From NCBI GenBank assembly GCA_031286225.1, contig JAITUQ010000028.1, forward strand, positions 1 to 64,000: 64,000 bases of DNA, read 5' to 3'. Shown piece after piece: positions 1 to 64,000 of this stretch (positions within the stretch are counted from its first letter, which is position 1; each line of letters starts with the position of its first letter). The translations under genes and the position numbers were made by a program. Source of the stretch: Candidatus Methanorudis spinitermitis. Lineage in GTDB: Archaea > Methanobacteriota > Methanobacteria > Methanobacteriales > Methanobacteriaceae. The notes below the pieces were generated by a model, which had not been told where the DNA came from, did no database searches, and saw only the letters and a list, made by a program, of their open reading frames with translations.

Positions 1-140
1 TAATAATTTAAATAAGGAAAAATATTTTATTTAATATAAAAAATAATAAATATCACTAAGTTATATATGAAAATAATGATTATGATAAAAGTTATTATTT
101 TTAAACATTTTGCCCATTACTATAAATAAAATTTTTTTTA

Positions 141-511
141 TTATAAAAATTTGCTACATGTTTTGATGAAAGCTTCAGCATTGTTTAAATCAGCTATTGC
201 ATCTTCGTTTGAAAAAATTATATGGATATCATAATCTGCATTGGTTCTATCATTTTCAAGATCTTTTAAGATTTTAGCTATTTCACTATCAAAATTCCCA
301 TTAACGACATATTCTAAACCAATTTATGTATAGTTCCAGCATGTTTTTTAGTTTTAATTCCTTTTTTAATCAGCAAAGCTTTTGCAGCATAAAAAACTGC
401 ATAATAAGAGCGATTTATAGATAAGTTATATCTCCCATTCTTTAATGATAATTTTGATTCTTCAATAGATTCTAATGCCTTGTTAAAATATAAATGAGCT
501 TCTTCATCCAA
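141..511 (-). pseudogene. HEPN-domain protein, frameshifted (toxin half of a HEPN/MNT pair)
   Basis: The first 65 codons (511 down to 314) encode a HEPN-type helical domain with the typical signature RSYYAVFYAAKALL. The frame then stops right after HKLV. Shifting by one base restores the expected continuation, LEYVVNGNF..., which runs to a stop at 141-143 and ends in ...FIKTCSKFL. HEPN relatives usually read 'H-x-x-G-L-E-Y-V' here, so loss of one G near 320-326 is the simplest explanation. The RX4-6H ribonuclease motif is also incomplete, with FY where active members often have FH. The start overlaps the end of the upstream MNT gene by 8 bp, as is usual for these pairs. An assembly or sequencing error cannot be excluded. 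Confidence 0.68.
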
Positions 512-812
512 TTACAACACCATCTTCATTTACATTGGATAAAAAAGAAAAATTTTTATTTTTTTCATAATATGACTTGGATCTAATTATTAATGAAATA
601 TATTCTCCTGTTGCAAGAAGAAGATCCCATGCTTTATTAGAAATTTCCTCTTTCAGATCTTTAATATTGTCACTATTTGTGATGATTAATAAATCTATGT
701 CTGAATCTTCTTTGTCCTCTCCACGAGCAACAGACCCAAATAAAATGATTTTTTCTATTTTAGGATCTTTCAAACTTCTTGCAAAATTAATAGCTAACTG
801 TTTTTTATCCAT
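504..812 (-). CDS. MNT-type nucleotidyltransferase (antitoxin-like)
   Basis: This 102-residue protein has the minimal nucleotidyltransferase motif GS-x10-DxD, visible as GSVARGEDKEDSDID, followed by LLI. In the MNT family this binds Mg-ATP. In characterised HEPN/MNT pairs the MNT protein (MntA) AMPylates and neutralises the HEPN RNase. It lies directly upstream of the HEPN gene on the same strand with an 8-bp overlap, so the two form a two-gene operon. The MNT frame is intact while the HEPN partner is frameshifted, the order of loss expected if the toxin is dispensable. Assignment to the family is firm; activity as an antitoxin is inferred. Confidence 0.85.
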   Translation of the reverse strand: MDKKQLAINFARSLKDPKIEKIILFGSVARGEDKEDSDIDLLIITNSDNIKDLKEEISNKAWDLLLATGEYISLIIRSKSYYEKNKNFSFLSNVNEDGVVIG

Positions 813-915
813 AAAAACACATATAAACTTTGATTAATTAATAAATATAGATTAATTAATAATATATGTAATAAACTATATATTTTTATCTGGGAAGTAT
901 TGATTTTTTTGGTGC

Positions 916-1668
916 TTAAATTATAATTCTATCTGGATTTGTGTATATATTGAACCTATTTTCTCTTACAAACCCAACCATTGTAATATTTGCTTTATTA
1001 GCTACAGTGTATCCTGAAAAACTTGGAGCTGCATTTGAAGCAAGTATAGGAATTCCTACTCTAGCTACTTTTATTAACATATCTGCAGGCATTCTCCCAC
1101 TGTAAATGATGTATGACTGACTGAAATCAAATTTTTCTAAAGCCCCTGCTCCAATTACTTTATCAACAGCAACATGCCGACTAACATCTTCTTTTACTAT
1201 GAACTTGTTTTTGTTTATGATTGCAGCTACATGTGTTCCCCCAGTTTCTTGCCAAATAAAAGCATTTTTTCTTAATTTTTCCATATTGTTTATTAAGTCA
1301 TCTTTATCAATAGCTAAATCTGATTCTACTTTATTGATAAGATCAATTTTTGATCTCCATCCTCCAGAACTATCTGAAACAAGGACTAATTCTTCATCAT
1401 TTTTTAAGTTTTTTGGATCAATAGTTACTTTAATAGTTAATTCATCAATCTCAATCTTTTTTATATCTTTAGCATTAGCTACTAATCCTTCTCCTAAAAT
1501 GTATCCTGTAGCAAACTCTTCTAAAGAATCTGGAATGGTAGAAAAATTCCGACTAAAGTGGTTATTTATTAATAACTTCACATTATAATCAGAAACAACT
1601 TTTTCAGAAACTTTTTCAGTTTTTCCATCTGTTAAATTAATTGCATTAACTGTTTTTGTTAGTTCCAT
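916..1668 (-). CDS. fdhD: FdhD-family protein lacking all cysteines
   Basis: At 250 aa it has normal FdhD length and family landmarks: FATGYILGEGL near residues 52-62, QETGGTHVAA near 140-150, DVSRHVAVDKVIGA, and SGRMPADMLIKVARVGIP. FdhD passes sulfur from a cysteine desulfurase to the molybdenum/tungsten bis-MGD cofactor of formate dehydrogenase. Bacterial FdhD uses a CxxC loop for this. Here the equivalent stretch (about residues 97-106) reads VSDSSGGWRS, and the whole protein contains no cysteine. It may bind cofactor without transferring sulfur, or use another route. It sits in a neighbourhood of Mo/W genes (mobB, moaA, fwd, mod). The ATG start at 1668 is supported by TATA-like sequence and a GGGGA stretch upstream. 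Confidence 0.85.
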   Translation of the reverse strand: MELTKTVNAINLTDGKTEKVSEKVVSDYNVKLLINNHFSRNFSTIPDSLEEFATGYILGEGLVANAKDIKKIEIDELTIKVTIDPKNLKNDEELVLVSDSSGGWRSKIDLINKVESDLAIDKDDLINNMEKLRKNAFIWQETGGTHVAAIINKNKFIVKEDVSRHVAVDKVIGAGALEKFDFSQSYIIYSGRMPADMLIKVARVGIPILASNAAPSFSGYTVANKANITMVGFVRENRFNIYTNPDRIII

Positions 1669-3983: not shown

Positions 3984-4760
3984 ATGATCAACAAATACCT
4001 AATTCTCATTACAAAACTTATATCAATATTTGGAAGTGTTATCATTAGAATAGTTTCTGTTGTAGGGAAAAAAAACACAGGAAAAACTTTGTTAACTGTA
4101 AAAATCATTCAAGAACTAAAAAAAAGAGATTTTAAAGTAGCTACTATTAAACATTCTCATCATAAAATGGAAATGGATAGGAAAGATACTGATACTTGGA
4201 AACATAAGGAAGCTGGTTCTGATATGGTAGTAGGAGCTGGAGATAGAACATTCTTTAATATAGCTAATGATTTACCTCTTGAGAGAATATTATTTCTCAT
4301 AAAAGTCATTGAAGAACCTGATTTTGTAGTGGTTGAAGGTTTTAAAAATTATAAATATAGTAAAATATCAACTTCTAGAGAATTAGAAGATGAATTTACT
4401 TTAAAAACTGTCGATGCTTTTAATATTGATGGAAATGAAGTTAAATCTTTAGTTGATATTATAGAAAAAAATAGCTATGATATAATTGATACATTATATA
4501 CTAATGAATGTGATTATATTGATGGAGAATCTATTGGAAAAGCTATTGTTAACAATGAAATAAATTATGATTCCGAGGATACAGATGTTTATCTTTCTAT
4601 TAATGAAAAAGTTATAGGTTTAAATTATTTTGTAAATAATTTTATAAAACATAGTATTATTGGAATGCTAAAATCACTAAAAACCAAAGAATATGGAATC
4701 AATAAAAATAATGGTTTTGAAAAAATTGAACTTATTATAAATGACAAAAATAATAAATAA
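3984..4760 (+). CDS. mobB: MobB-like molybdopterin-guanine dinucleotide biosynthesis protein
   Basis: The P-loop GKKNTGKT and the following 'TIKHSHHKMEMDRKDTDTW' region are the standard MobB landmarks. MobB is a GTP-binding protein that assists MobA in attaching GMP to molybdopterin. The ORF begins about 21 residues before the usual start of the family, with MINKYLILITKLISIFGSV in front of IIRIVSVVG. No good Shine-Dalgarno precedes the ATG at 3984, whereas GGAAG lies just before ATC/ATT codons near 4040. A non-AUG start or a natural extension are both possible. The C-terminal 100 residues extend beyond bacterial MobB and have no recognised motif. moaA follows 77 bp downstream on the same strand. 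Confidence 0.85.
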   Translation: MINKYLILITKLISIFGSVIIRIVSVVGKKNTGKTLLTVKIIQELKKRDFKVATIKHSHHKMEMDRKDTDTWKHKEAGSDMVVGAGDRTFFNIANDLPLERILFLIKVIEEPDFVVVEGFKNYKYSKISTSRELEDEFTLKTVDAFNIDGNEVKSLVDIIEKNSYDIIDTLYTNECDYIDGESIGKAIVNNEINYDSEDTDVYLSINEKVIGLNYFVNNFIKHSIIGMLKSLKTKEYGINKNNGFEKIELIINDKNNK

Positions 4761-4837
4761 TAGCTATTATTATTTTTATTTCATTTTTTTATTATTAATT
4801 CTATTATTAAATAGATCCTGAAAGATTGTGATGTTAA

Positions 4838-13067: not shown

Positions 13068-13218
13068 ATAGCTAATTTCTAATTGTTAATAGAACATCGT
13101 CTAATTTAATTAAAAAAGACTTATAACTTTCTTTTATATATATTAATAATTATCTTTTCAGGATATTATATAAAAAAATAGATACATAAACAATATTGAT
13201 TTTTGGTTGGTGGAAATG

Positions 13219-13530
13219 ATGATTACAAAAGAAGTAGAGATGGATTGTGATTTAGCTATAGACTATATTAAAAAAAATGTGAATGCTCATGATATATTAG
13301 AACTTTCTTATAATCGGGTATTCACTCCTGGTGAAGTTTTAAGTATAGATACATCTGAATATAATGGTAAAGAAGGATTAAAAGTCATAATTCATGTTTC
13401 CGAAGATACATTTACATCTACTGTTGAAGTTGATGTTGAGGAAATAAAAGATGATTTAATAGAAGTTACTCACATTCCGAAAAATAAAGATGAAAAAACA
13501 GTCATTTTAATAGAAAAATGTGAATTATAG
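13219..13530 (+). CDS. Small conserved methanogen protein of unknown function, copy 2
   Basis: This paralogue of the preceding gene is about 103 aa from ATG 13219 (an ATG at 13216 is equally possible), with GGTGG at 13209-13213 as ribosome site. It shares the central SYNRVFTPGEVL box and the KDDLIEVTHI box. The two copies are separated by about 150 bp, enough for a separate promoter: TATATATTAAT lies near 13136-13146. The gene is convergent with modC, whose stop is 13 bp away. Function is unknown. Confidence 0.75.
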   Translation: MITKEVEMDCDLAIDYIKKNVNAHDILELSYNRVFTPGEVLSIDTSEYNGKEGLKVIIHVSEDTFTSTVEVDVEEIKDDLIEVTHIPKNKDEKTVILIEKCEL

Positions 13531-13542
13531 TTATTTTTGAAA

Positions 13543-14697
13543 TTAGTTAATAGTGGCATGATTAAATTTTTCATGATCACTAATTATATTAACATTCAAT
13601 GATTTGAAACTAATATACACTTCTTTATTTTTTTTCACAGATAATATATCTGCTGAACTTTTGGTCAAAAGCCCTTTAAATATATGATCTTCAATAGCTA
13701 CATTTACTAAAACAGTAGGGCCTGATTCAATGATTTCTGTTATTTTTCCTTTCATTTGATTTCTTGCTGAAGATTCAAATTTTTCATTAGAAAAAATAAT
13801 ATTTTCTGGTCGAATAGCTATTAAAACTTTAATTTCCTTATTTATATATTCATTTTTTTCATTAAAAATCTCTTTGTATTTTTTATTTATTTTATTGATA
13901 CAGTTAATATCTGAACTGTTTATGGTTGTTTTATCACCAATTTTTATTTTTGCTACTTCTGGACTTATTTCAGTAATTTTTCCTTCAAAAATATTTTGAA
14001 CTCCCACAAAGTCAGCTACAAAATTACTTTCAGGTCGAGAAAAAACTTCGGAAGTATTGCCCAATTGGTGTATGTTCCCATCTTTCATAATACCTACTCT
14101 ATCTGCTAAATTCCAAACATCATTAAAGTTATGAGTAACATGAAGACATGTAGTTTTATATTCTTTGCAAACGTTTTTAATTAAGGATGTTAATTTAGAC
14201 TGTGTGGCAACATCTAAAGCACTAAATGGCTCATCCATCAAAATCATCTTTGGCTCAACAATAAGTGCTCGAGCAAGGCTTGTTCTTTGAGCTTCACCTC
14301 CACTCAATGTGTCAATATTCCTGTGCAAAATATTGTCAATTTTCATTTTTTTAGCTATTTCGTTTATTTTTTTAGCTACTTCTTTCTTTGAAAATTTTTT
14401 TTGGGCACCATAAGCTATGTTATCATAAACATCCATATTAGGAAATAAAATAGTATCTTGATATACTATACTGATACCACGATCTTCAGGAGGAATATCA
14501 TTTATAATTTTATTTTTTAACTTAATTGTTCCTTTAATTGGTTTATAAAAACCAATAATTGTTTCAAGCAAGACAGATTTTCCTGATCCTGTAGGTCCAA
14601 TCAATACAAGATATTCTCCTTCTTTAAGATTTAAATTTACATTTTTTAAATGAAATTCTCCTAAATCTACAGATAAATTTTTAATTTCTAAATACAT
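13543..14697 (-). CDS. modC: Molybdate/tungstate ABC transporter ATPase (ModC/WtpC type)
   Basis: This 384-aa ABC ATPase has Walker A GPTGSGKS, the ABC signature LSGGEAQRTSLARAL, Walker B ILMDEPFSALD and the switch histidine in LHVTHNF. The C-terminal third (about residues 230-375) looks like a TOBE-type regulatory domain, with strands such as NIFEGKITEI and MKGKITEIIESGP. It is the last gene of a minus-strand set with the permease and binding protein. Whether molybdate or tungstate is preferred cannot be told from sequence. Confidence 0.9.
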   Translation of the reverse strand: MYLEIKNLSVDLGEFHLKNVNLNLKEGEYLVLIGPTGSGKSVLLETIIGFYKPIKGTIKLKNKIINDIPPEDRGISIVYQDTILFPNMDVYDNIAYGAQKKFSKKEVAKKINEIAKKMKIDNILHRNIDTLSGGEAQRTSLARALIVEPKMILMDEPFSALDVATQSKLTSLIKNVCKEYKTTCLHVTHNFNDVWNLADRVGIMKDGNIHQLGNTSEVFSRPESNFVADFVGVQNIFEGKITEISPEVAKIKIGDKTTINSSDINCINKINKKYKEIFNEKNEYINKEIKVLIAIRPENIIFSNEKFESSARNQMKGKITEIIESGPTVLVNVAIEDHIFKGLLTKSSADILSVKKNKEVYISFKSLNVNIISDHEKFNHATIN

Positions 14698-14776
14698 TAC
14701 TAATCAAAACCAATTGTTTTGTATTTCATTATTTTAATCATAATTTTTATTTTTGAAAGATTTATAAATATTTTTT

Positions 14777-15568
14777 TTAAAAACTTGAACTATAGCTTTC
14801 TTTTGCATATTTTTCCATAACAGCTATTGCTATAAAAGAAATTATGACCAAAAGAATCCCTGCTGTTATTGACATGTCAATATCTCCAGTTGAAAGATTT
14901 AAATACATTGAAACAGCCAAAGTTTCAGTTTTCATCAATATTCCTCCACCAACAAAGAGAACAGACGCAAATGTTCCTATGCAACGAGCAATAGCTATTA
15001 TCCCACTAGCAAAAAGTCCTTTTTTGGCTAATGGTAATGTAACATTAAAAAAAGTAGCTATTTCACTGTATCCTAAACTACGTGACACAAATTCATATCT
15101 TGGATCTATATAATTAAATGTTGAATATAAGACTTTCACTGCAAAGGGAAAAGCTACAAAAAATTGGGCAATTATTATTCCAGTAGTATTAAAAACAAGT
15201 TCAATTCCTAGGATTTCAAGATAATTTCCTATTCCATTAGATCCTAAAAACATTAAAAGAGCAATACCAACAACAATTTCTGGAAATGCCATAGGTAAAT
15301 CAATTATAATTTTGAACAATCTTTTCAATGGAAATTCATACCTAGCTAATGTATAGGCCATTGGAATACAACAAATCATAATAAGGGTTGCAGATATTAA
15401 AGAAGTAAATAATGTTAATGAAATAGCAAAAACCATTTCTTCTGAAAATAAAGCATTTATAAATCCGTCAAAAGTAGGTATTAAAAACATGCTTCCTATA
15501 ACTACAAAAAATATTAGTGTAATAGCTATTGTTATTCCAATAAACATTAATTCAAATTTTGAACGCAT
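14777..15568 (-). CDS. modB: Molybdate/tungstate ABC transporter permease
   Basis: This 263-aa membrane protein has six predicted transmembrane segments, starting with an N-terminal hydrophobic helix at about residues 8-32. The coupling-helix region EFVSRSLGYSEIATFFNVTLPLAKKG is the EAA motif that contacts the ATPase. It lies between the binding protein (92 bp upstream) and the ATPase (79 bp downstream) on the minus strand, in the order modA-modB-modC. Confidence 0.9.
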   Translation of the reverse strand: MRSKFELMFIGITIAITLIFFVVIGSMFLIPTFDGFINALFSEEMVFAISLTLFTSLISATLIMICCIPMAYTLARYEFPLKRLFKIIIDLPMAFPEIVVGIALLMFLGSNGIGNYLEILGIELVFNTTGIIIAQFFVAFPFAVKVLYSTFNYIDPRYEFVSRSLGYSEIATFFNVTLPLAKKGLFASGIIAIARCIGTFASVLFVGGGILMKTETLAVSMYLNLSTGDIDMSITAGILLVIISFIAIAVMEKYAKESYSSSF

Positions 15569-15660
15569 ATATTTAACACCTTAATTGATTAGTTGACTCA
15601 TTCTTTTTAAATTGGAGGTATTATTATTTAATCTTTTCTATTTTGTCGAATAGTAACTGA

Positions 15661-16461
15661 TTATACTTCGAATCCCCATTTTTTCCAAATTTCTTTACCT
15701 TCATCTGATGTAATAAATTCTTCAAATTTTTGAGCAGCATCTTTATCTTTAACAAAGTTTGTAATTCCAATAGGAACAGTACTTATTTCGTTTTCATCTG
15801 TAGGTATTTTTATAACTTCTATTTTACCATCACTTTCTTTCCAAGAAGCCATGTCTTCCCAAACTATGGTTGCATCTACTTGCCCAGTTATTAAATAGGT
15901 AAGTAACTGGTTAACAGTTGTGCTGGTAACCACAATATTTTTTTCTACAGCAATGTTCAAGTTATTTTTTTCAAGTATTTTAGCTGTGGCTTTACCAATA
16001 GCTGGACCATTCTTTTCACCAATTCCAACTTTAACTCCATCTTTAGCTAAATCCTTAAGTGAGGTTATATTTTTAGGATTTCCTTTTTCTACAATTATCA
16101 CAGGAACATTTTTTGTAATATTTTTAACAGTATTGTTATCTATGTAGCCATTGTTCATAGCATCTTCCATATATTTATAATCAGCAGGTAAAAACACATC
16201 TCCTTTTTTTTGGCTTTCAAGAGTTGCGAATAATTCACCACTTCCACCATACTTAGAATTAACTTTTATATTTGGGTATTTTTTATTAAATTCACTTATA
16301 AGTTCTGGACCAACTTTACTAAAACCTGCAGCAAATAATACATCGATACTTTCTTTTTCATCTAATTCAGAATTATTAATGATATCACTCAAATATATTC
16401 CAGTTATAGCTATAATAGCTATTGTTACAATACAAATTATTGTTATTTTCTTTTTTTCCAT
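15661..16461 (-). CDS. modA: Molybdate/tungstate-binding protein (ModA family)
   Basis: The N-terminus has lysines followed by a hydrophobic stretch at about residues 8-24 (IICIVTIAIIAITGIYL), acting as signal or membrane anchor; there is no lipobox cysteine. The mature part starts with IDVLFAAGFSKVGPELISEF and contains GGSGELFATLES and 'VFLPADYKYMEDA', typical of ModA oxyanion-binding proteins. At 266 aa it is ModA-sized, shorter than WtpA. It is the first gene of the transporter operon, preceded by GGAGATATAT. Confidence 0.88.
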   Translation of the reverse strand: MEKKKITIICIVTIAIIAITGIYLSDIINNSELDEKESIDVLFAAGFSKVGPELISEFNKKYPNIKVNSKYGGSGELFATLESQKKGDVFLPADYKYMEDAMNNGYIDNNTVKNITKNVPVIIVEKGNPKNITSLKDLAKDGVKVGIGEKNGPAIGKATAKILEKNNLNIAVEKNIVVTSTTVNQLLTYLITGQVDATIVWEDMASWKESDGKIEVIKIPTDENEISTVPIGITNFVKDKDAAQKFEEFITSDEGKEIWKKWGFEV

Positions 16462-16877
16462 ATATATCTCCTTTTAAATAAATTTTTCCATCATGATATA
16501 TTATGCATATCGATGTTGTAATTAAATTCAATTTTATTATATATAAATATTACTCAATGTTCAAAATTTTTCTATTAATGCTTCATTTAAATTTTTTTTA
16601 TTTTAAAAAATTTATTTATTTTTTAAATTTAGAAAATTTTTATTATTTTTAAAAAATTCAGATAAATTTTTATTTAATCTAATAAATAGTTATTATTAAA
16701 TATTCATTATTCTATATATTGATTATTATTAATTAAATTATAAAATAAAAGATTTATATTAATATTTAAAATAATGATCATTACGAAGATTATTTTCATA
16801 ACTATAAATTTATAAAATTATAAAAACAAAATTTATTTTATTTAATAACATTTAAAAGATTAATGGTGAGATTTTTC
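16462..16877. promoter_or_regulatory. Divergent promoter region between modA and the ChlI-like gene
   Basis: These 416 bp separate two divergent operons. Toward modA there is a TATA-like TTATATATAA near 16538-16547 on the minus strand. Toward the ChlI-like gene there are TATAAATTTATAAAATTATAA strings near 16803-16822. A perfect 12-bp palindrome, TAATGATCATTA, lies at 16772-16783. No archaeal molybdate-repressor consensus that I can name is present. Confidence 0.4.
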
Positions 16878-22507: not shown

Positions 22508-22568
22508 TTAAATCACATACTTTATAAAACAATCATAACTACTTTTAAAAAATAGCTATTAAAACCTA

Positions 22569-23723: not shown

Positions 23724-23971
23724 TTATTCCACCAACCAATTCAATAGCTATTGATAGTATAATTTTATTTTTTTTCAACTGGACTTTACTTTAATAATTT
23801 TTATAGTTTATATCTTAATTATTTTATTATTTATAAAAATTTTTTATCTTTATAAGTTTAAAATGAAGTTTTATTAGTTTATAAAAATTCAAAATTCTTA
23901 AATAAATCTATATTTTAATAATAAAAATAGGTATTATAAAAGACATAATCAAATTTTTAGATGAGAATGTA

Positions 23972-41407: not shown

Positions 41408-42001
41408 TTATTTTGCTTGCTCATTTAAATTTTTTTCTAAAAGTTCTAGATAAGACCTTCTTTCAAAACCATTAACTATTCCTAATTTTTTAAACGTTTC
41501 AAAGATCCCATCTAGTGCAGGTTTAAAATCATTTCCATTTTTTAAATCTACTTCAATTTCCATATAAGGGCTTAAACCTTCAACATCATCTAAACATATA
41601 ATATATTGATTTAATTTGTAAATTTCTCTATTTTTAACAACAATATTTGCTTTTTTAAAACCTAAATTTTCAAGTAGTTTACAAATTTTATATCTATCAC
41701 CAATAGCTATTTCAATCTCTTCCCTAGTCTTACTATTGTGGTCTATTTTAGGACCTTTATAGGTTATAAAAGTGTTAATATCATTTTTGATTGAGATTTT
41801 TCGTATTCTAAGCGCTTCATCTGTTTTTGCAAAGTTTTTAAAAGGGCTATCAAAATAAATATCTTTTTGATGTTCTTTTCTTATTTGTAAGGCATTTATT
41901 CTTTTTAACTCTCTTTTAATACTTTTAAAGTCAATTATTTTTGCTTTTACTTCTACTTCAATCAAATTATCCTCTTCTAATATTTTATTCATATAATTCA
42001 A
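41408..42001 (-). CDS. CYTH-domain protein (CyaB/class IV adenylate cyclase-like)
   Basis: The ExExK motif is present as EVEVKAK at about residue 16, followed by 'ALRIRKISIKNDINTFITYKGPK' and 'EEIEIAIGD', with the late 'YMEIEVDL' strand. These form the eight-stranded tunnel of CYTH enzymes that bind triphosphates. The archaeal CyaB-like branch is often annotated as adenylate cyclase, but triphosphatase activity on thiamine triphosphate or inorganic triphosphate is equally possible. A second ATG at residue 4 is an alternative start. Confidence 0.8.
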   Translation of the reverse strand: MNYMNKILEEDNLIEVEVKAKIIDFKSIKRELKRINALQIRKEHQKDIYFDSPFKNFAKTDEALRIRKISIKNDINTFITYKGPKIDHNSKTREEIEIAIGDRYKICKLLENLGFKKANIVVKNREIYKLNQYIICLDDVEGLSPYMEIEVDLKNGNDFKPALDGIFETFKKLGIVNGFERRSYLELLEKNLNEQAK

Positions 42002-45488: not shown

Positions 45489-47645
45489 ATGCATGAAGTA
45501 ATTGTTTGTGAGAAGCCAAAATCATCTGAAAAAATAGCTATGGCTTTATCTTCTAGTGCCAAAAAGAAAAAATATAATAAAAAAGTAGCTTACTGGGAAA
45601 TTGAAGAAAAAGATAAAAAAATCACTGTTTTATCTGCTGTAGGTCATTTGTATTCTTTAACTCCAAAAAATCCGAAAGAAAAAGTATTTTTTGATTTAAA
45701 TTGGGTGCCTATTTATGAATTGGATAAAAACAAAAAATATGTTAAAGATTATGTTTATGCATTAAAAAAATTTTCTAAAAATGCAGATAAATTTATTCAT
45801 GCGTGTGATTTTGATATTGAAGGAACGTTAATTGGTTATAATGCTTTAAAATATGCTTGTGATAATAATTCAACTGATAATGCAGCTAGAATGAAATTTT
45901 CAACACTTACAAAAAAAGATATATTAAAAGCATATGACAATATGATTGATGTTGATATTCATCAAGTAGATAGTGGAATAGCTAGACACATACTTGATTA
46001 CTTTTTTGGAGTTAATATTTCAAGAGCTTTAATGAAAAGTGTTAAAAAAGCTAAATCTAGGTTTTTAAAACTGTCTGCTGGTCGTGTTCAAACTCCAAGC
46101 TTAGCTATTTTGGTTGACAGAGAAAAACTAATTAAAAAATTTGTTCCAGAACCATATTGGATGATAAAAGCACTGCTTGAAGGAGAAATAATCGCAGACC
46201 ATAAAAAAGCTAAAATTTTTGATAAGAAAGTAGCTGAAGAAATATTTGAAAAATGTAAAGGTGAAGATGCTCTTATTTCTAATGTAAAAGTTACAGAAAC
46301 AACAAGAAAACCTCCCATTCCTTTTAATTTAGGAGGACTTCAGTCTGAAGCATATGGAATTTTTGGATTCAGTCCGAAAAAGACACAGATTATAGCTCAA
46401 AACCTTTACACTGAAGGATATGCTTCTTATCCTCGTACATCATCTCAAAAACTTCCTGAAAGTTTAGAATTTAAAAAGATCTTTAAGGAATTATCTAATA
46501 GCTCTACATTTAAGGAACATATAGATAAACTTCCAAAATCCTTAAAACCAAATGAAGGTAAAAAAAAAGATGCTGCTCACCCTGCTATTCATCCAACAGG
46601 AACAATTCCTAAAAAATTAGGTAAAGATGAACTTAAAGTTTATGAATTAATTGTTTATAGATTTATCAGTGTTTTTTCTGAAAATGCAAAAATGGAGACC
46701 ATGAAAACTGAACTTAAAATAGCTAATGAAGATTTCACTTTTAGAAGAAAAAGAGTTTCATACATGGGATGGTTGGAACATTATCCATTTCGTAAAATTG
46801 AAGATGATGAGTTTCCAAATATTAAAAAAGGAGACATTCTTAAGGTTAATGAAATATTATCTGAAGAAAAAGAAACTAAACCTCCTGCAAGATATAATGA
46901 AGCATCTCTTATAAAAGAATTAGAAAAAAGAGAGCTTGGAACAAAAGCTACAAGAGCAGATATAATTGCTAAGTTATATGATAGAAAATACATTTCTGGT
47001 AAAAAAATTGAAGTTAATCAATTAGGAGAAAATATTATAGATAATCTTAGGCAGCACTGTAAAAATTTAACTAGTGAAGAATTAACTCGTCAATTTGAAA
47101 AAGACCTAGAAGGCATAATGACTGACAAAACAACTAAGGAAAAAATTATTGGTGAAGCAAAAAAAGAAGTATTAACGATTCTTGATGATATTGAAAAAAA
47201 TGAATCAAAAATTGGTGAAAAACTTTATGATGCTTATCAAGAAAGTAGAATAATTGGAAAATGTGCTTGTGGTGGCGATCTACTTACAAGATATTCTCCA
47301 AGAAATAAAAGTCATTTTGTAGGATGTTCTAATTTCCCTGATTGTAATGTTTCGTACTCTTTACCAAAAGGAGCTACCATTTTAAAGAAAACCTGTGAAA
47401 AATGTGGATTAGCTATGATTTCATTTGGTAAACCTCGCCAACATGCATGTCTTGATCCAAAATGCGGAAAACAAAATACTAAATCGTCTACTCCTGAAAT
47501 TGTAGGGTCTTGCCCAGAATGTGATAATGACTTATTAAAAAGATCTGGTAGATATGGGGATTTTGTTGGTTGTAGTGGTTTTCCTAAATGTAAATTCACT
47601 TGTTCTTTAGACGAACTTGAAAATATATCTAAAAAGAAGAAATAG
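45489..47645 (+). CDS. topA: DNA topoisomerase I, type IA
   Basis: The 718-aa enzyme relaxes negative supercoils. The N-terminal Toprim domain starts [16 protein letters not shown] and contains [13 protein letters not shown]. The catalytic tyrosine is Tyr314 in [11 protein letters not shown]. The C-terminal part has three zinc-binding modules: CACGGDL...[16 protein letters not shown]...CLDPKC and CPECDNDL...GCSGFPKC. The gene ends with a TAG that lies inside an AATAGCTATT palindrome. Confidence 0.96.
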
Positions 47646-48180
47646 CTATTTTTTTGAAATTATTGTTAATCTTTATTTGACTCAATTTATAGGATTTTTT
47701 GAAATAATTTATGATAATTTTTATTATAATAATTTTATATAATAATAAAAGCAAAAATTATTTAAAAATTATTCTTATTGTAAAAAAATATAATTTTGTT
47801 AAATATTTGATAATAAGAAAAATCATAAACTTTATATTGTACAAAACTCATATAGCATAAGTTAAGAAGATTTTAGATAAGTTTACTAAAAATTAAAAAA
47901 TACTATTTTAAATTTTCAATTAAATTTTTGTCAAGCATTGAAAATTATTTTTAATTATATAAATAAAATAATGATAAATTAATAAGAAAATGTTGTCAAT
48001 TTAAAAAAATAATTATTAAACAATTATTAGCTTTTTAATTTTCATTAATATTTAAATTATAAAGCATTAGTTTAATTTTATACTTTATAATTTCTATTCT
48101 ATCATGGATTTGATAATTCATTGACATACTAATATTTATACTTATGATAATTATTGAAATAATAGTTAAAGAGGCTTTTT
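47646..48180. other. Non-coding gap before aglB
   Basis: 535 bp without an ORF. A palindromic AATAGCTATT overlaps the topA stop. The rest is low-complexity A/T sequence; no ribosome site stronger than AAGAGGC before the aglB ATG. Confidence 0.4.
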
Positions 48181-50877
48181 ATGAATAAAAAGAAAACATT
48201 AACCATACTTAAGTCAGTAGCTATAGTATTAATAATAGTCTTTTTTGCATTTTTATTAAGGGCAAATGCTTATAATTTGTCAATAATTCCAGAAAACCAA
48301 AAAGATATTTTCATTGATTCTAATGGACTACCTTACTTCAGTGAAATGGATTCATACTATAACTTACGATTAACACAAAACTATGTAAATAATGGACATT
48401 TTGGAGATACAATTAAGGATGGAGTTCCTTGGGATATGCACCGTTATTCTCCTGATGGATTGCCAGTTGAATATGAACCAATGATTGTATATGTAACGTC
48501 TTTCTTATATTATTTAGCTAATATGTTTTCGGAGATGTCTTTGAAGGAAGTTGCATTTTGGACAGGAGCTATAATTGCCCCACTTGCAGCCATACCTGCT
48601 TATATATTTGTTAGGAGAATCACAAATGATTATGGTGGAATCACTGCAGCATTACTTGCATCACTTGCACCAAGTTACTTTGGACACACTTTTGCAGGTT
48701 TTTTTGATACAGATATGTTCCAAGTAACTCTTCCTATTTTCATTGTTCTTTTCTTTATAGAGAGTATAAGAAGTGATAAATTATTATATAGAATAATTTT
48801 TGCTTTGCTTTCATTAGTTTGTATTTTCCTATTTTCATTGTCATGGGTAGGTTATATTTTTACTGTTGCTGTATTAATCATATTTGTGATAGTATATTTA
48901 ATAGCGGGTTTTCTATTGAAAATGAACTTAATAGAACCAATTAAAGACTATTCTAATAAATTGTCATGGGTTATTAATCAAAAAGAGATATTTTCAATTT
49001 TATTAATAGCTATTGTAGGCTTTGTTGTTGTAACTATCACTGGAAACCTTGGAAATACTGTTGATTCAATTATAGGGTTAGCTGGGGCAACACAAATTCA
49101 AGCTGCAGCTCATGCAATAACAGAATATCCTAATGTAGGGATTTCTATTGGAGAACTTCAACTTATGAATCTTCTTTATGGAGGACTAGACGGAGCATTT
49201 TTGTCTGGTCCAGGAGGAGTCATAAATGGTATTGGGGGGATAGTATCATTTTTTGGAATTTTAACAATACTATTTATATTTGCTCAAAGACTTTGGAATC
49301 TTCAATCAATTAGAACTGACAATAGAAAAGGGAAAGCTCATAAAAGTGAGAGAAAAGCACTATCTAAATTAAGTGATGAAAAAAATGGAAAATCATTTAT
49401 GGACTCTACCTTAGGCAGTCTTAATACACTTGATCAAATAAATAAAAGTAAACGTGAAACTTTACTTTACTTAACTTTATTTATTGTATGGATGGGATTA
49501 TCAGCATTAGCTATTACTCAAGGTTCAAGGTTCGTATTACAACTTGTAATTCCTGCAAGTTTAGCTACTGGAATATTTGTTGGATATGCAGTAATGTATA
49601 TTAAAAATAAAGTTGACAAAGATACAACATTAATGGTTATATCTCTTATTGGGGCTTTTTTAATAGCTTATCCGATCCGAGCTACTGTATATAGTGATTA
49701 TTGGATATTATCCTTTTTGATTTTTGTAATTTTTGCAGCTATAGCTATATATGGAACTAAAAATATTTCTTCAAACTTTAACATTAAAAAAACAGCTGTC
49801 ATGATGATTATTACCTTAGCTATTGTTGCTCCAACTGTTGCTGGAGCTTATCAATCATCTGTTCAAACTGTTCCAGGTACTAGTGATCCAATGTGGAATT
49901 CAATGACATGGATTCAAGAGAATACAAGTAAAGATACAGTTGTTACTTCTTGGTGGGATTTTGGCTATCTTTTTACAATAGCTGCTAATAGGCAAGTTAC
50001 CTTTGATGGTGGTACTCAGACTAGTTATAGGATATTTTGGGTTGGAAAAGCAATGACAACGACAGATACAGAATTATCAGCGAAAATATTCACTATGTTA
50101 GCTACTTCTGGTGATATTACTTTTTTAGCTCTGGATAATTACACAAATAATAGTGGTAAATCTGTTGAAATTCTTGAAAAAACTTTAACACTTCCAAAAG
50201 AAGAAGCTAAGACAATAATGACTAATGAATATAAGTTAACCTCGCCGCAAGCAGATGAAATATTAAATTATTCACATCCAGCTAATCCAAGACCTGTAAT
50301 ATTTGTAGCAAGTTCTGACATGGTACAAAAAGCTTATTGGTGGACTTATTTTGGAAATTGGGATTTTGAATCAAAAACAAGTAAAGCTTATACTTACTTA
50401 ATGTCTAATACTCCTGCTGAAATGAAAAATATTAGTGGAGGACGTCAACAAGCTATTATTACAAATCATGAAACTAATATTGGAAATGTACCTGTTTTAT
50501 ATCAAACAATTTTGACTAAAGGCTCTGGAGATAATGGAACTATTAATGCATCCTTTGTAGCAAGATTTGTTAATGGTAGTGAAATTAAATTGCCTAATGG
50601 TACAGTTTTTAAACCTATGTTTAATGATGAAGAAGTGAAAATTAGCAAATTGTTCATTGTAGAAGATGGTATGTTAACGAAAAATGAAACAGTAGATAAA
50701 GATGGAAATTATGCTTTATTCATCTTTGGTGATGGTGGAGTATATACTTCAATACTTATGAGCAAAGAATTGGAATATTCTATGTTTACTAAGTTGTACA
50801 TACTTGGTGGTTTTGGACAAGATTCATATGAATTTGTTCACAGTGAACCTGGTGTTTCATTATGGAGAGTAAAATGA
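48181..50877 (+). CDS. aglB: Dolichyl/archaeal oligosaccharyltransferase AglB (STT3 family)
   Basis: The 898-aa membrane enzyme transfers the lipid-linked glycan to Asn of N-x-S/T sequons on surface proteins. About 11-13 transmembrane helices occupy the first 550 residues. The catalytic acidic sites are EMDSYYN near residue 57 and FFDTDMF near residue 178. The signature WWDYG appears as WWDFG at residues 591-595, a conservative Tyr-to-Phe change. The C-terminal soluble domain completes the active site. The heavily sequon-rich DUF11 adhesin upstream is a plausible substrate. Confidence 0.94.
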   Translation: MNKKKTLTILKSVAIVLIIVFFAFLLRANAYNLSIIPENQKDIFIDSNGLPYFSEMDSYYNLRLTQNYVNNGHFGDTIKDGVPWDMHRYSPDGLPVEYEPMIVYVTSFLYYLANMFSEMSLKEVAFWTGAIIAPLAAIPAYIFVRRITNDYGGITAALLASLAPSYFGHTFAGFFDTDMFQVTLPIFIVLFFIESIRSDKLLYRIIFALLSLVCIFLFSLSWVGYIFTVAVLIIFVIVYLIAGFLLKMNLIEPIKDYSNKLSWVINQKEIFSILLIAIVGFVVVTITGNLGNTVDSIIGLAGATQIQAAAHAITEYPNVGISIGELQLMNLLYGGLDGAFLSGPGGVINGIGGIVSFFGILTILFIFAQRLWNLQSIRTDNRKGKAHKSERKALSKLSDEKNGKSFMDSTLGSLNTLDQINKSKRETLLYLTLFIVWMGLSALAITQGSRFVLQLVIPASLATGIFVGYAVMYIKNKVDKDTTLMVISLIGAFLIAYPIRATVYSDYWILSFLIFVIFAAIAIYGTKNISSNFNIKKTAVMMIITLAIVAPTVAGAYQSSVQTVPGTSDPMWNSMTWIQENTSKDTVVTSWWDFGYLFTIAANRQVTFDGGTQTSYRIFWVGKAMTTTDTELSAKIFTMLATSGDITFLALDNYTNNSGKSVEILEKTLTLPKEEAKTIMTNEYKLTSPQADEILNYSHPANPRPVIFVASSDMVQKAYWWTYFGNWDFESKTSKAYTYLMSNTPAEMKNISGGRQQAIITNHETNIGNVPVLYQTILTKGSGDNGTINASFVARFVNGSEIKLPNGTVFKPMFNDEEVKISKLFIVEDGMLTKNETVDKDGNYALFIFGDGGVYTSILMSKELEYSMFTKLYILGGFGQDSYEFVHSEPGVSLWRVK

Positions 50878-51232
50878 AGTAAATGATTTATTGATAATCT
50901 TAAGCTTCATTTTTTACATTTTTTTTCAACCTTCTTTTTTTATATTTTTTTATAAATAAAATTAATATTTTAGAATAATTTCATTTTAAACACTTTAATG
51001 GATTTTTTTTATTTTAATATTTATTGATTATTAAAAAAAATAATCAAACTATAATAATATTTATTAATAGCTTGAAATAGATTAAAAATAGAATATCATA
51101 TCATAGTTAGATTATAATTAAATAAATTTAAGCACAATTATTATCTATTTTAAATTATTCTATACTTTATAATAATTTACTATTTTTGATTTCATGGTTT
51201 TTATTATTTTGGATAATAATTAAGTGAGTCCT
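50878..51232. other. Non-coding gap
   Basis: 355 bp of T-rich then A/T-rich sequence between aglB and the GTPase gene. The first part (50907-50960) has clustered T-runs that probably end the aglB transcript. No ORF. Confidence 0.45.
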
Positions 51233-52327
51233 ATGGATATTGATGATAAAATAAAGAAAATTGAGGATGAAATTCAAAAAACTCCTTATAATAAAGCTAC
51301 ATCTCACCACATAGGTAAATTAAAAGCTAAAATATCAAAATTAAAAGAAGAATCTATAAAACGAAAGAGTTCTGGAGTAAAAGGCAGGGGTTTCCACGTT
51401 AAAAAAACTGGGGATTCAACAGCTGTTTTGGTAGGATTTCCCTCTGTTGGAAAATCAACACTTTTAAATGAGCTTACTAATGCAGAATCTAAAGTTGGTG
51501 ACTATCAATTCACAACTTTAGACATTGTTCCTGGAATCATGGAATACAAAGGAGCAAAAATTCAAATATTTGACATTCCAGGTATTATTACAGGAGCTTC
51601 TGGAGGTAAAGGAAGAGGCAAAGAAATTCTTTCAGTAGCTAGAACTGCAGATATAATATTAATAGTTTTAGATGTCTTTAATCCCCAACATTTAGATATT
51701 ATCTTAAATGAACTTAGAGATATTGGTATTCGCCCTAATGAAAAGGAACCAGATGTAACGGTAAGAAAAAAAAAGATTGGGGGGGTGCATGTTTCTTCAA
51801 CTGTTGAATTAACTCACTTAAATGATAAAATAATAAGGTCAATTATAAATGAATATGGTATGCACAATGCAGATATTTTATTTAGAGATGATATTACAAT
51901 TGATCAATTCATAGATGTTTTAGAAGCTAATCGTTCATATATTCCAATGTTAGTACTTTTAAATAAAGTTGATCTAGTTGATAATAGCTATTTAGAAGAA
52001 ATTAGAAAAAAAATGCCTCAATTCATCCCAATTTCTGCTGATAAGAAACATAACATTGATTATCTTAAAAATCAAATTTTTGAAGATTTGAACTTAATAA
52101 GGATTTATTTAAAACCACAAGGGAAAAAAACAGACTATGAAGATCCATTAATTATAAAAAATGGAACTACTGTTCTTGATGTTTGTGGGAAACTTCATAG
52201 AGACTTTGTTAAAAACTTTCGCCATGGAAAAGTTTGGGGAAAATCAGTTAAATTTCCAGGACAAAAAATAGGCTCAGATCATGCTTTAGAGGATAAAGAT
52301 GTTTTAAGAGTTATTCTTAAAAAATAG
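51233..52327 (+). CDS. DRG-family GTPase (Obg-related) with TGS domain
   Basis: The G1 motif is [10 protein letters not shown]3 is DIPGIITGA and G4 is NKVDLVD; the C-terminal TGS domain (about residues 290-362) starts '[21 protein letters not shown]'. The N-terminal helical lead-in ([28 protein letters not shown]) is diagnostic for DRG proteins, thought to act with ribosomes. ATG 51233 is preferred to GTG 51224. It ends in AAA-TAG-CTA within an AATAGCTATT palindrome. Confidence 0.92.
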
Positions 52328-52438
52328 CTATTAGATTATCATTTAACTTTCAATGGATTTGATTAGTTATTAATGCTTTGATTATTTATTTATATTTAGC
52401 TTTAATTGAATATTAATATATTATTTAATGTGAAATAG

Positions 52439-54671: not shown

Positions 54672-55007
54672 ATGAGTGATCTTGAGGAGTTGCGCCGTAA
54701 AAGGATGGAAGAATTGCAAAAACAAGCTATTGCATCAGAAAATCAGCAAATCCAGCAACAACAAATGCAACAAGAGATGGAAATGCAAAAAAAACAGATT
54801 ATGATGCAAATTTTGACTCCTGAAGCTCGTAGTAGATTAGCTAATATTAGACTAACTAAACCAGAATTTGTAGATCACATTGAACTTCAATTGATTCAAC
54901 TTGCTCAAAGTGGTGGAGTTCAAAATAAAATAACTGATGAACAGTTGAAAGATTTACTCAAACGTTTATCTGGTCAAAAGAGAGATATTAATATCACTCG
55001 AAAATAG
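54672..55007 (+). CDS. PDCD5-family DNA-binding protein
   Basis: The 111-aa protein starts with a helix rich in Arg, Glu and Gln (LRRKRMEELQKQA...QQQMQQEMEMQKK). The compact three-helix core follows: 'ILTPEARSRLANIRLTKPEFVDHIELQLIQLAQSG', typical of the TFAR19/PDCD5 family. The archaeal member binds DNA in vitro; cellular role uncertain. It follows S19e in the order found in related methanogens. The stop is part of a TAGCTA sequence. Confidence 0.95.
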   Translation: MSDLEELRRKRMEELQKQAIASENQQIQQQQMQQEMEMQKKQIMMQILTPEARSRLANIRLTKPEFVDHIELQLIQLAQSGGVQNKITDEQLKDLLKRLSGQKRDINITRK

Positions 55008-55245
55008 CTAATATTTTAAATACAACATTAATTCTTTAATATAAATTTTTCAATGATAATAATCATATAATAATTTAATACTTAATTTAATTACTAATTC
55101 ATTAATTTAATATAATAATTAATTGCAAATTATTTTCATAGTTTTATATTAGAACTATATAATTTATCTTTAGAAAATTAACAGTTATTTCAATTAATAA
55201 TAAATTATAGATACTATCATGTTTGAAAATTATTGATTTGATTTT

Positions 55246-60170: not shown

Positions 60171-60623
60171 ATGCTTGGAGAGAAAGAACTTATTAAATTA
60201 TTCCCTGATTTTGCAGAATTAATACAACCTTCTGGAATAGACTTGGCTCTTGAGGAAGTATTTATTCAAAAGTCTTCTGGATCATTAATTGATAATGAAA
60301 AAAATCTTCCTAATATTGAATCTTTAGATGGGCCAATTTACACACTTAAATCAAAGACTGCTTACTTAGCTACTATTGATAGGAAAATTAAGATTCCTAA
60401 AGGATATGCAATGTTATATAAACCAAGATCAACTCTTCTTAGATCTTTTGTTTCTGTACAAACAGCTGTTGGAGATCCAGGTTTTATTGGAACCTTAATG
60501 TTTTTGATTTATAATCATGGAGATTATGACTATAAAATCAAGAAAGGGGATCGAATAGCTCAAGGAGTTGTATTTGAAGTTAAAGGTTCTGGAGAATATA
60601 GTGGTAGCTATCAAGAAAAATAG
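60171..60623 (+). CDS. dut: dUTPase / dCTP deaminase-family nucleotidohydrolase
   Basis: The 150-aa protein contains 'QPSGIDLALEEVF', 'MLYKPRSTLLRSFVSVQTAVGDPGFIGTLMFLIYNHG', and 'IKKGDRIAQGVVFEV-x-GSGEYSGSYQ', motifs of the archaeal trimeric dUTPase/dCTP deaminase family. Its length fits the shorter archaeal dUTPase (about 150 aa) better than bifunctional deaminases (about 190-200 aa). It removes dUTP and supplies dUMP. The stop TAG is part of TAGCTA. Confidence 0.9.
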   Translation: MLGEKELIKLFPDFAELIQPSGIDLALEEVFIQKSSGSLIDNEKNLPNIESLDGPIYTLKSKTAYLATIDRKIKIPKGYAMLYKPRSTLLRSFVSVQTAVGDPGFIGTLMFLIYNHGDYDYKIKKGDRIAQGVVFEVKGSGEYSGSYQEK

Positions 60624-60937
60624 CTAATTTTTTAATTTATTTTAATTTTTTAATTCTTTTTTTATCCTATTTCAATAAATTTAACTAATTAATTTTTATT
60701 TTTTAATTATATTAAATAATTTTTACTAAAATCAATTGATTTTAAATAATTTTTTATAGCAAATCTTTAATATTGTTTTATTTTACAAGTTATTTAATAT
60801 CAATGTTAACAATGAATATAATTATAAGTTATAACTTATACTAAATCTATTAAATTATTTATTTTAGATTAACCATATTTATTAAATAATTGATTTTTTA
60901 AATTGTAGATTTTTAAATTGTATATCTAATTGATAAT
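60624..60937. other. Non-coding gap
   Basis: 314 bp of A/T-rich sequence between dut and the TPP enzyme. GTTATAACTTATAC lies near 60828-60842, reminiscent of the palindromic motif near 12450 but not identical. No ORF. Confidence 0.4.
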
Positions 60938-62581
60938 ATGAACACTTCTAAAGCTATAATAAAATTACTTGAAGATGAAGGAGTCAAACATATTTTTGGT
61001 CATCCTGGAGAACAAATTCTTCCATTATATCAATCTTTGAATAATTCTAAGATTAAACACATTTTAACCCGTCATGAACAAGGAGCAGTTCATGCTTCAG
61101 ATGCTTATGCAAGAGTATCTGGGAGATTTGGAGTATGTATAGCTACTGCAGGGCCAGGGGCATTAAATCTTGTCATGGGAGTAGCTACTGCCTATAAAGA
61201 TTCAATCCCTATGCTTGTGATTACAGGAGATAATCCGAAAAATTTAAAAGAAAAAAATAGTTTTCAGAGTATTGATATAGTATCTATTTTCAAACCAATT
61301 GTAATAAAAAGTTTCAACCCATATAATGGAAAATTAGCTATTGCAAATATTAAAGAAGCTTTGGATATTTTAGAAAAAAAACCTCATGGACCAGTTCATA
61401 TAAATCTTTCAAAAGATGTTTTATTAGATGAAAACCTTGGAAAGGTCATAAGTAGAGAATTTACATTTTCTCATAATTATAGTTATGATAATTTAGATGA
61501 AGCTATTGGACTCTTAAAAAAATCTGAAAGACCTCTTATAGTAGTTGGTGCTGGAATTAGGTGGGGTAGAGCTACTCAGGAATTTGAAAACTTTATAAAT
61601 GTAAATAAAATACCAATAACCACTACTTATCACAGTAACGGAATTATTAGTGAAAAAAATCAATTAAATTTAGGAATGATTGGTATTCGTGGCACAACAT
61701 TAGCTAATTATGCTTTAAATCACAGTGATTTAATTTTAATTTTAGGCTCAAAACTTTCAGATCGAACAATAGATTTTAAAAAATCTCATTATAATGATTC
61801 TTTTTTAAAAAATTATAAAAGTAGTAAAACTAAAATAATTCATATAAATATTGATAAATCATCTTTTAAAGGAGATATAAGGATTGAAGGCGATGTAAAA
61901 TTTGTTTTAAGTAAATTAAATCATTTAAATAAAATAACAAGCTCTAATAGTAAAGATTGGTTAGATGAAATATATAAAAATGATAAAAAAATAGATATTG
62001 ATGGGATGAATTCTAATCAAATAGCTTTGAAGCCTCAAATAGCTATTGATGAAATTTTAAAATCTTCAAAGGGTTTACATGTTGTTAATGATGCTGGAAG
62101 TCACACAACTTGGGTCAACTTACTTATAAAATCAGATATTCCAGGAAAACTCGTTTTTTCTGGAGGAATGGCTCCAATGGGTTATGGACTACCTGCTTCT
62201 TGTGGTGTATCTATAGCTAAAAATGGTGAAAATGTGATTCTTATTAATGGAGATGGTGGATTTCAGATGAATATTCAGGAATTAGCTACTGTAAAGGTAA
62301 ATAATTTACCAATTTTGATTTTTGTTTTAAATAACTATCAGTTAGGAGTTATTCGTCAATGGGAAAAGTTACTTTCAGATGATTTAAGATATGAGGTCGA
62401 TTTAGAAAATCCTGATTTTGTAACTATAGCTAATGCCTATGGAATTGACGGAGAAAAAGTTAAAACAAAAAATGATTTGAAATTAGCTATTGATAAAGGA
62501 TTAAAATTGAAAAAACCATATTTGGTTGAGGTTATTGTTGATGAAGAAGACATTCCACTTCCAGAATCACTAAATAAATAA
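60938..62581 (+). CDS. ilvB: Acetolactate synthase large subunit-like TPP enzyme
   Basis: The 547-aa protein has the three TPP-enzyme domains. The catalytic Glu is in RHEQGAVHASDAYAR near residue 47, a central nucleotide-like domain runs from about 190, and the TPP-Mg site is NGDGGFQMNIQELATV ending in FVLNN. It condenses pyruvate in branched-chain amino-acid synthesis if it is IlvB, but no ilvN or ilvC lies next to it, and archaea often have paralogues of other use. Assignment to the ALS family is firm; substrate is inferred. Confidence 0.85.
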   Translation: MNTSKAIIKLLEDEGVKHIFGHPGEQILPLYQSLNNSKIKHILTRHEQGAVHASDAYARVSGRFGVCIATAGPGALNLVMGVATAYKDSIPMLVITGDNPKNLKEKNSFQSIDIVSIFKPIVIKSFNPYNGKLAIANIKEALDILEKKPHGPVHINLSKDVLLDENLGKVISREFTFSHNYSYDNLDEAIGLLKKSERPLIVVGAGIRWGRATQEFENFINVNKIPITTTYHSNGIISEKNQLNLGMIGIRGTTLANYALNHSDLILILGSKLSDRTIDFKKSHYNDSFLKNYKSSKTKIIHINIDKSSFKGDIRIEGDVKFVLSKLNHLNKITSSNSKDWLDEIYKNDKKIDIDGMNSNQIALKPQIAIDEILKSSKGLHVVNDAGSHTTWVNLLIKSDIPGKLVFSGGMAPMGYGLPASCGVSIAKNGENVILINGDGGFQMNIQELATVKVNNLPILIFVLNNYQLGVIRQWEKLLSDDLRYEVDLENPDFVTIANAYGIDGEKVKTKNDLKLAIDKGLKLKKPYLVEVIVDEEDIPLPESLNK

Positions 62582-62649
62582 TATTTGATTATGTGGAGTA
62601 TAAATTTTAAATTTAAATAAGATTTATTAAAACTTAAAAATAGTTCAAA

Positions 62650-63276
62650 TTATATTGGATTGTTTATTGAGTTCATGATTTTTTCAAATGATATGGGATC
62701 TACAATGTATACTTTTTCAAATGGATGTTTAGCTAATCTTTTAACACTAATAAGATCTCTATTTAAATCTTTGTGTAAATTTGATTTGGTGTTATTAGAA
62801 ATATCTTTATAAACAACAAAATAGTGTTTTTCAGCTTTTAATAATAATGAGTTTATCAGATTTTTATCTTTCTTGGAATAATTATCTATTAAATGTGGAA
62901 AAACACAGCTTAATGTTTCTAAAGGTTTAAGTTTTAGTTTCACTTTTAGCTCTTCAATTGCTTTGGCATATGTTTTTTCATTGCTTAAATTTACATGTTT
63001 GAATTCTATGAAAATTAGTTTTAATTGTTCACCTGATTTTATATAATGCAATCCATCTACACTACTGTGTTTTGCTACATTATTGTATTTTTTCTTCAAT
63101 TGTTCATAAACATCTTCAGATAAACTGTCCATAGATAAAATTTTATCTTTTTCATTTTCACTAACATATTTATAAGGTTTATCTCTGGATCTTGAAACTT
63201 CTTTAATAGTCTTTAAGAATTTTTCATCACTTGAAAGTAAATCTAACATTTCTTCAAGAGGATTAATTCTGACCAT
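62650..63276 (-). CDS. Unknown protein with a possible PD-(D/E)xK nuclease-like motif
   Basis: No family is recognised in this 208-aa protein. Around residues 72-95 the sequence SSVDGLHYI ... LIFIEFKHV gives an Asp (74) and an E-x-K (91-93) on a predicted strand, as in PD-(D/E)xK nuclease folds. The C-terminal part has 'KHYFVVYKDIS' and ends 'VYIVDPISFEKIM', also compatible with that fold. It has no obvious partner. GGTGGTCTC precedes the ATG, within a weak site. Confidence 0.6.
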   Translation of the reverse strand: MVRINPLEEMLDLLSSDEKFLKTIKEVSRSRDKPYKYVSENEKDKILSMDSLSEDVYEQLKKKYNNVAKHSSVDGLHYIKSGEQLKLIFIEFKHVNLSNEKTYAKAIEELKVKLKLKPLETLSCVFPHLIDNYSKKDKNLINSLLLKAEKHYFVVYKDISNNTKSNLHKDLNRDLISVKRLAKHPFEKVYIVDPISFEKIMNSINNPI

Positions 63277-63836
63277 GAGACCACCATTACTTTAAAAACT
63301 ATTTTATAATATTTTCTTTGAACTTCAGCAAATCTAGTGTATTAAAGATTCATATATTAATTTGAGATTCATATATAATAAGATATTAATTCCTATTAAT
63401 TACTAATTAATTATAGTGGGATGCAAAAATTCATATTAAAAATTAAATGAATTTCTAAAAAATAATATATAATCTAAAACTATCTTAAAATTACTTTTTT
63501 AAGTAATTAAGAATAAATTTTTATTATTTTCATTTTTTTAATAATTACAAGTTGAATTTTAAATGGAACATTATTGTAAACACATATTATATAATTTAAA
63601 TTATTTAAATAAAATTAACTTTTATAGAAAATATGAAAGTATTATTGCAAATATTTATAATTATTCCAATAAAAAATTCTAAAAATTATTTATAAATAAA
63701 CGAAATTTTTCAAAATAGCTCCACAAAAATTTACTTCTCCATTAAATAGAAAAATTTAAATCAGTATTGAAATAACAAATCAATATACATAGTAAATTAA
63801 TTGCATTTTAAATCTAGATATATAGGATGTATAAAA
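63277..63836. other. Non-coding divergent gap
   Basis: 560 bp between the divergent unknown gene and the last partial gene. A/T-rich; ATTCATATA(T/A)TAA-like strings repeat near 63350-63382. TATA-like strings are too many to choose a promoter. No ORF. Confidence 0.4.
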
Positions 63837-64000
63837 ATGGATAAAAAAATATTAGCAATAATCATAGTTGTTGTAGCTATCTTAGCTATAGTCACAAGTG
63901 TGCTTGTTTTAGATGTTTTCACACCTAAAGCAGACTTTGAAAATAAGTTTATGACAGGAACTCTATATGGTTTATATTATATAGAAGAGAATGCTACTAA
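63837..64000 (+). CDS. Partial gene: N-terminus of a membrane-anchored or secreted protein
   Basis: From ATG 63837 the frame is open to the window edge. It begins MDKKILAIIIVVVAILAIVT, a signal or anchor helix, and continues 'VLDVFTPKADFENKFMTGTLYGLYY'. GGATGTA precedes the start. Similar short N-terminally anchored proteins are common in Methanobrevibacter; family unknown. Confidence 0.6.
   Translation, partial: MDKKILAIIIVVVAILAIVTSVLVLDVFTPKADFENKFMTGTLYGLYYIEENAT

Follow-up and report, generated by a model that had tools for sequence, protein, structure and literature searches.

The hexamer TAGCTA, with consensus AATAGCTATT and core AGCT, appears to be a HIP-like palindrome kept in this archaeal genome by a fixation bias that most resembles molecular drive mediated by a putative dimeric DNA-binding protein, a reading to which we assign a probability of about one half. 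According to this proposal, variants nearer the consensus would become fixed more often, codon usage, composition and mutation alone being probably insufficient, and TAGCTA would be recognised by a putative dimeric, sequence-specific DNA-binding protein, not by a methyltransferase. Alleles carrying better sites would be transmitted, or would serve as recombination or repair donors, more often (molecular drive); a close alternative to drive would be that a chromosomal protein binds the sites and that selection favours this binding.

Abundance of the palindrome in the window and the genome

In the window, the whole 64-kb stretch of DNA analysed, AATAGCTATT occurs 19 times, against a mean of 0.28 and a maximum of 2 in 100 dinucleotide shuffles, in keeping with the first-pass annotation, which had placed its expectation below one per 64 kb and whose 19 start positions were all exact in a pattern count. 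TAGCTA itself is found 151 times, at 2.36 per kb and scattered across the entire window (shuffles, mean 18.5, maximum 30), and a recount agrees with the 12 copies previously noticed at 13201–16500. Since the hexamer is palindromic, each copy is present on both strands. Exact matches to the decamer lie at 4759–4768, 13813–13822, 14990–14999, 15521–15530, 16414–16423, 28302–28311, 28543–28552, 31239–31248, 33365–33374 and 41702–41711, and, with their TAGCTA outside ORFs of at least 60 amino acids on the ORF map, at 22551–22560, 23743–23752 and 25234–25243. Others are located within an STT3/AglB-like gene (49005–49014), a DRG-type GTPase gene (51983–51992) and a TPP-enzyme gene at 60938–62581 (62038–62047). 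Several copies contribute stop codons: the decamers at 47641–47650, 52323–52332 and 37996–38005 hold the TAG stops of topA (45489–47645), of the DRG-type GTPase (51224–52327) and of a minus-strand ORF (38001–38615), respectively, and the hexamers at 55005–55010 and 60621–60626 give those of the genes for a PDCD5-like dsDNA-binding protein (dsDNA_bind) and a dUTPase/DCD-like protein. The stops of topA, the GTPase, the PDCD5-like gene and the dUTPase/DCD-like gene had been correctly recognised before; beyond these four, two further ORFs of the window also stop on the TAG of TAGCTA.

The window genes that we scanned are mostly ordinary archaeal genes. The named relatives of the STT3/AglB-like gene belong to Methanobrevibacter MAGs, with 76% and 69% identity for WRMT01000106 and WRNS01000055, isolates that, judging by their names, come from termite guts, and 46–47% for ruminant ones; the host, a methane-producing archaeon of the gut, resembles Methanobrevibacter. 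The window also encodes a large surface protein with repeated DUF11 domains (34120–37383) and, on the minus strand at 25789–25897, a CAU-anticodon tRNA with ~37 extra bases 3' of the anticodon, most likely an archaeal intron. An Rfam search of the window returned one tRNA only, and ARAGORN misses the CAU tRNA.

The whole genome (1,913,400 bases) contains 430 copies of AATAGCTATT versus 2 of the reversed control, which contains CG and therefore undercounts, and 8 of the composition-matched palindrome AATTGCAATT, added as a control for that reason. An 800-kb genome sample holds 1871 TAGCTA, extrapolated to ~4,500 genome-wide. The G+C content is 20% for the decamer and 33% for the hexamer.

That codon, codon-pair or composition bias alone could produce the motif is hardly credible. 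Such a bias would agree with the concentration of most coding copies in one frame (xTA-GCT-Axx), but frame 2 is enriched too, and in the 155 kb of the genome covered by the codon test coding TAGCTA number 312, versus 115 when synonymous codons are shuffled so that no gene's codon usage changes (at most 136 in 100 rounds), a 2.7-fold excess; a stricter synonymous shuffle gave 310 versus 121. Outside ORFs of at least 100 amino acids in these 155 kb, the excess is ~8-fold for TAGCTA (84 versus 10.8 expected) and ~50-fold for AATAGCTATT (14 versus 0.28), and CTA follows 33 of 112 TAG stops in the 800-kb sample. The codon-usage and dinucleotide nulls are rejected, since the excess survives the shuffles and persists outside ORFs. 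The first-pass annotation had proposed a DNA-level palindrome resembling HIP1 and not codon bias, a view that would have suffered from counts within the range of codon and dinucleotide usage or from an excess lost in intergenic DNA or other frames; neither was found, and the observation itself is correct, and was understated.

Shape, strength and conservation of the motif

Preference rises with the extent of the match, from the core AGCT to TAGCTA and then to ATAGCTAT. Words that differ from TAGCTA at one base are in excess when they keep AGCT (CAGCTA 4.3-fold, GAGCTA 1.9, AAGCTA 1.5) and at or below expectation when they alter it (TATCTA, 0.97 of expectation); TAACTA/TAGTTA show no depletion. 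Coding log-odds by outer base are 2.95 for TAGCTA, 1.75 for TAGCTG, 1.19 for TAGCTT and 0.74 for TAGCTC, and by flank 3.6 for ATAGCTAT and -0.4 for CTAGCTAG. The flank preference is symmetric, the motif being a perfect palindrome. Outside ORFs, A is favoured at -1 and -2, a weak tendency in the host genus and a strong one in genus g7 (86% and 85% A), whose genome G013 favours A/T flanks more strongly than G000; with a constant AGCT core and a flank preference that differs by genus, the flanks thus form dialects. A preference that is both graded and palindromic would point to a putative dimeric binding protein.

The strength of the bias can be quantified in proteins, as TAGCTA is synonymously reachable wherever Leu/Ile/Val-Ala precedes a codon starting with A; neutral usage was taken from the same codons in other contexts and the log odds ratio as 2Ns. 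In this genome TAGCTA occupies 1335 of 1673 LIV-Ala-(Axx) places (80%, versus 16% under neutrality), corresponding to a 2Ns of 3.0; the sister genome G002 has it at 553 of 713 places (strength 2.8), and the low genome G010 at 26 of 148 versus 22 expected (0.2). The strength is 2.7 in G013, 2.3 in G012, 2.0 in G062, 1.6–1.7 in G004, G106, G128 and G104, 1.5 in G014 and G007, and 1.3 in ruminant Methanobrevibacter loci; 2Ns is thus ~3 in the host genus, 1.3–2.7 in related genera and ~0 outside. LIV-Ala-IMTNK tripeptides are 25% in excess in this genome, an excess that tracks motif strength across 14 samples (Spearman 0.87, with an optimistic p value since the samples are related lineages), and the bias seems to tilt protein sequence.

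Decamers were counted in 139 genomes of the family. They are very frequent in genera g1, g3, g5, g7, g11 and g13 (184–965 per genome), reach 96–153 in g8 and 13–218 in g9 and g10, and are near the control level in g2, g4, g6, g12 and g14–g17; counts are 0–4 in the order's two other families and in one further member of the class. The densest of all is G013, in genus g7, with 819 decamers in ~1.1 Mb. The motif runs through the Methanobrevibacter-type genera and is absent from others. A different word, CTGCAG (and, more weakly, CAGCTG), is ~2.5- to 5-fold enriched in many genomes of the family, G000 and its relatives among them, and CTGCAG is also enriched in the low genome G010, without a TAGCTA excess. 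Paired decamers occur in 28 viral contigs, none of them clearly dense; in the IMG/VR contigs L131, L133, L134, L140 and L141, AATAGCTATT pairs repeat every 72 bases, apparently forming a tandem array with no relation to the archaeal motif.

Conservation was assessed in 144 reciprocal-best ORF pairs (138 from G002 and 6 from locus L002), across which 82% of the codons that encode the same amino acid in both members are identical. An unbiased screen of 1137 hexamers places TAGCTA first, kept at 0.95 versus 0.73 expected (z 6.9). This extra conservation ends at the motif edges, and a locally low mutation rate is ruled out, since codons beyond the motif evolve at the normal rate. A comparison of G000 with its congener puts synonymous loss of the motif at 17/359 (0.047), versus 0.274 under neutrality, a ratio of 0.17 (95% interval ~0.10–0.27), close to the 0.15–0.19 predicted from frequencies alone with a 2Ns of 2.8–3.0. 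Positions are in part shared even with genus g7, where 25 of 26 G013 sites coincide with sites in G000 (Fisher p 5e-5). Outside ORFs, conservation beyond the neutral level is only suggestive in a small sample: 11 of 26 sites are kept, whereas anagrams keep 0.29 (p 0.18) and one-off words 18% (p 0.03).

Alternatively, the motif might stem from mutation or repair that depends on sequence context, making TAGCTA and seldom destroying it while giving it no edge in fixation. Such a process would operate outside genes too and would suit a motif spread genome-wide and fairly homogeneous across genes, and a mutation model with fewer exits and more entries could mimic fixation bias. We nevertheless consider it unlikely. 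It would need two independently tuned rates to yield both 80% usage and 6-fold lower loss, which a single fixation parameter predicts together; codons farther out change at a normal rate; and one-off forms show no consistent depletion against two-off forms (1.6 versus 1.3 neutral in G000, 1.1 versus 1.5 in G002). Mainly because frequency and loss, which are separate measurements, agree under one strength, we favour fixation bias, by drive or by selection, over a purely mutational process.

Methylation, repair and protein binding as possible causes

C5 methyltransferases such as M.AluI are known to target AGCT, which counts in favour of a HIP-type process in which an AGCT/TAGCTA methyltransferase and a repair system would ratchet sequences into the motif and retain them there. 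The retention of the AGCT core with varying outer bases (CAGCTA, 4.3-fold) does so as well, as it recalls the core inside HIP1 (PMC4390886). The gene content makes this process improbable. A search for five Pfam families of DNA methyltransferases (C5, N4/N6, D12, HsdM and Eco57I) in the genome, which is 94% complete, yielded no candidate with a palindromic AGCT or TAGCTA target, and none of the five families follows the motif across the genomes compared. The co-occurring orphan methyltransferase suggested by the first-pass annotation did not emerge: the only strong C5 match in the genome resembles M.HaeIII over nearly its full length (E 1e-109), and the remaining DNA methyltransferase-like genes comprise a single Type I-like HsdM and long fusions of Eco57I type, whose target specificity we deduced from their class only, both classes reading asymmetric sites as a rule. 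Among genomes with the motif, G014 (99% complete, strength 1.5) has an HsdM-like gene only, and G062 (77% complete, strength 2.0) nothing above the curated cut-off in any of the five families. At L064:5921-7755, the gene of the HaeIII-like enzyme overlaps a 286-aa ORF, which may encode its restriction enzyme, and is near HerA-like and Mre11-like genes; these nuclease, HerA-like and Mre11-like assignments were made by eye from the translations.

Matches to the MutS family are weak everywhere, mostly ~650 residues long, and occur, as does EndoMS/NucS, in high and low genomes alike. Neither repair system therefore tracks the motif, mismatch repair is rejected as its driver, and the weak MutS-family matches also speak against the methylation-based process. 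So do the undepleted TAACTA/TAGTTA, which argue against a Vsr-like correction at AGCT.

The arrangement of the sites bears on what kind of binding would maintain them. Gaps between sites are near-random with a codon period, beyond which we found no periodic spacing or density requirement; exclusion is absent, with sites as close as 4–6 bases. Usage stays at 0.79–0.86 when another site lies within 120 bases, without diminishing return, so that each site seems to count by itself. Usage does drop from 85% to 57% as C-ending codons rise, which indicates that the strength is not perfectly uniform; this decrease in genes with C-rich third positions is expected if there is a competing pressure, and genes that arose recently could contribute to it.

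A somewhat unlikely but serious alternative is that TAGCTA is bound along the chromosome by a protein of the nucleoid, of segregation or of global regulation, and that dense binding is beneficial and weakly selected. The binding-like grading, the conserved positions and the thousands of sites genome-wide would suit such a protein. A small one would suffice, since RptR, a dimeric bacterial repressor of 79 residues, reads exactly the 6-bp palindrome TAGCTA (PMC12255303). However, a density requirement predicts regular spacing, exclusion and loss of preference beside an existing site, none of which is seen, and some sites are only 4–6 bases apart. Our slight lean to drive over selection comes from sites that are additive, unspaced and graded, with clade dialects, like uptake sequences. 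For drive, uptake proper is disfavoured by the palindromic form and by the lack of known competence: these archaea are not, to our knowledge, known to be naturally competent, and we found nothing useful in the literature on competence in methanogens. A recombination or repair-donor bias fits the data as well as uptake. In its most specific form, which we put forward tentatively, TAGCTA might be a methylation-independent, palindromic archaeal self-sequence that spreads by transmission or recombination drive via a putative binding protein, an uptake- or Chi-like word strong enough to tilt proteins.

Comparison with known repeated words and significance

We found no published description of AATAGCTATT or TAGCTA in archaea in the open literature, only the unrelated RptR operator. 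RptR sites occupy a few promoters in Gammaproteobacteria, whereas the archaeal TAGCTA is genome-wide, and the likeness lies in the recognised word; the RptR operator tolerates T/A at the central GC, which the archaeal motif does not (TATCTA, 0.97 of expectation). The cyanobacterial HIP1 (GCGATCGC) and alternate HIPs are closer: like TAGCTA, they are short palindromes with hundreds to thousands of copies per Mb and an uneven distribution between relatives. TAGCTA also shares with them a strong over-representation in and outside genes, deviations mostly at the outer bases with the core kept, and sites conserved beyond neutral expectation, selection having been reported to maintain HIP1 (Xu 2018, cited in PMC6604393). 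By contrast, TAGCTA is archaeal and AT-rich whereas HIPs are GC-rich (75–100%, a derivative 50%), and it is unpaired with any methyltransferase found, its MutS-family matches being weak. Since every cyanobacterial genome with a HIP is reported to have a methyltransferase for it (Elhai 2015, PMC4390886), we looked for this hallmark for TAGCTA and did not find it among the five Pfam families searched.

The uptake sequences of Neisseriaceae (DUS) and Haemophilus (USS) resemble TAGCTA in their thousands of copies and additive per-site behaviour. The graded over-representation of their near matches has been explained by molecular drive (PMC1939737), and they combine a constant core with clade dialects (PMC3630211); TAGCTA likewise shows a graded drive to consensus and clade dialects. 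Nevertheless, DUS and USS are oriented whereas TAGCTA is palindromic and archaeal, and any role of TAGCTA in uptake would be hypothetical.

HIP1 has lacked an explanation since 1995, and methyltransferases are central to the leading model. An independent archaeal case, apparently without methyltransferase and with a strength ranging from none to a 2Ns of ~3 across related genera, offers a second system for comparing relatives, and a fixation bias expressed as a number allows rival models to be tested. Methanobrevibacter-type archaea rank among the major methane producers in animal guts, and a word for self-recognition or recombination, if true, would matter for their genetics and for genetic tools.
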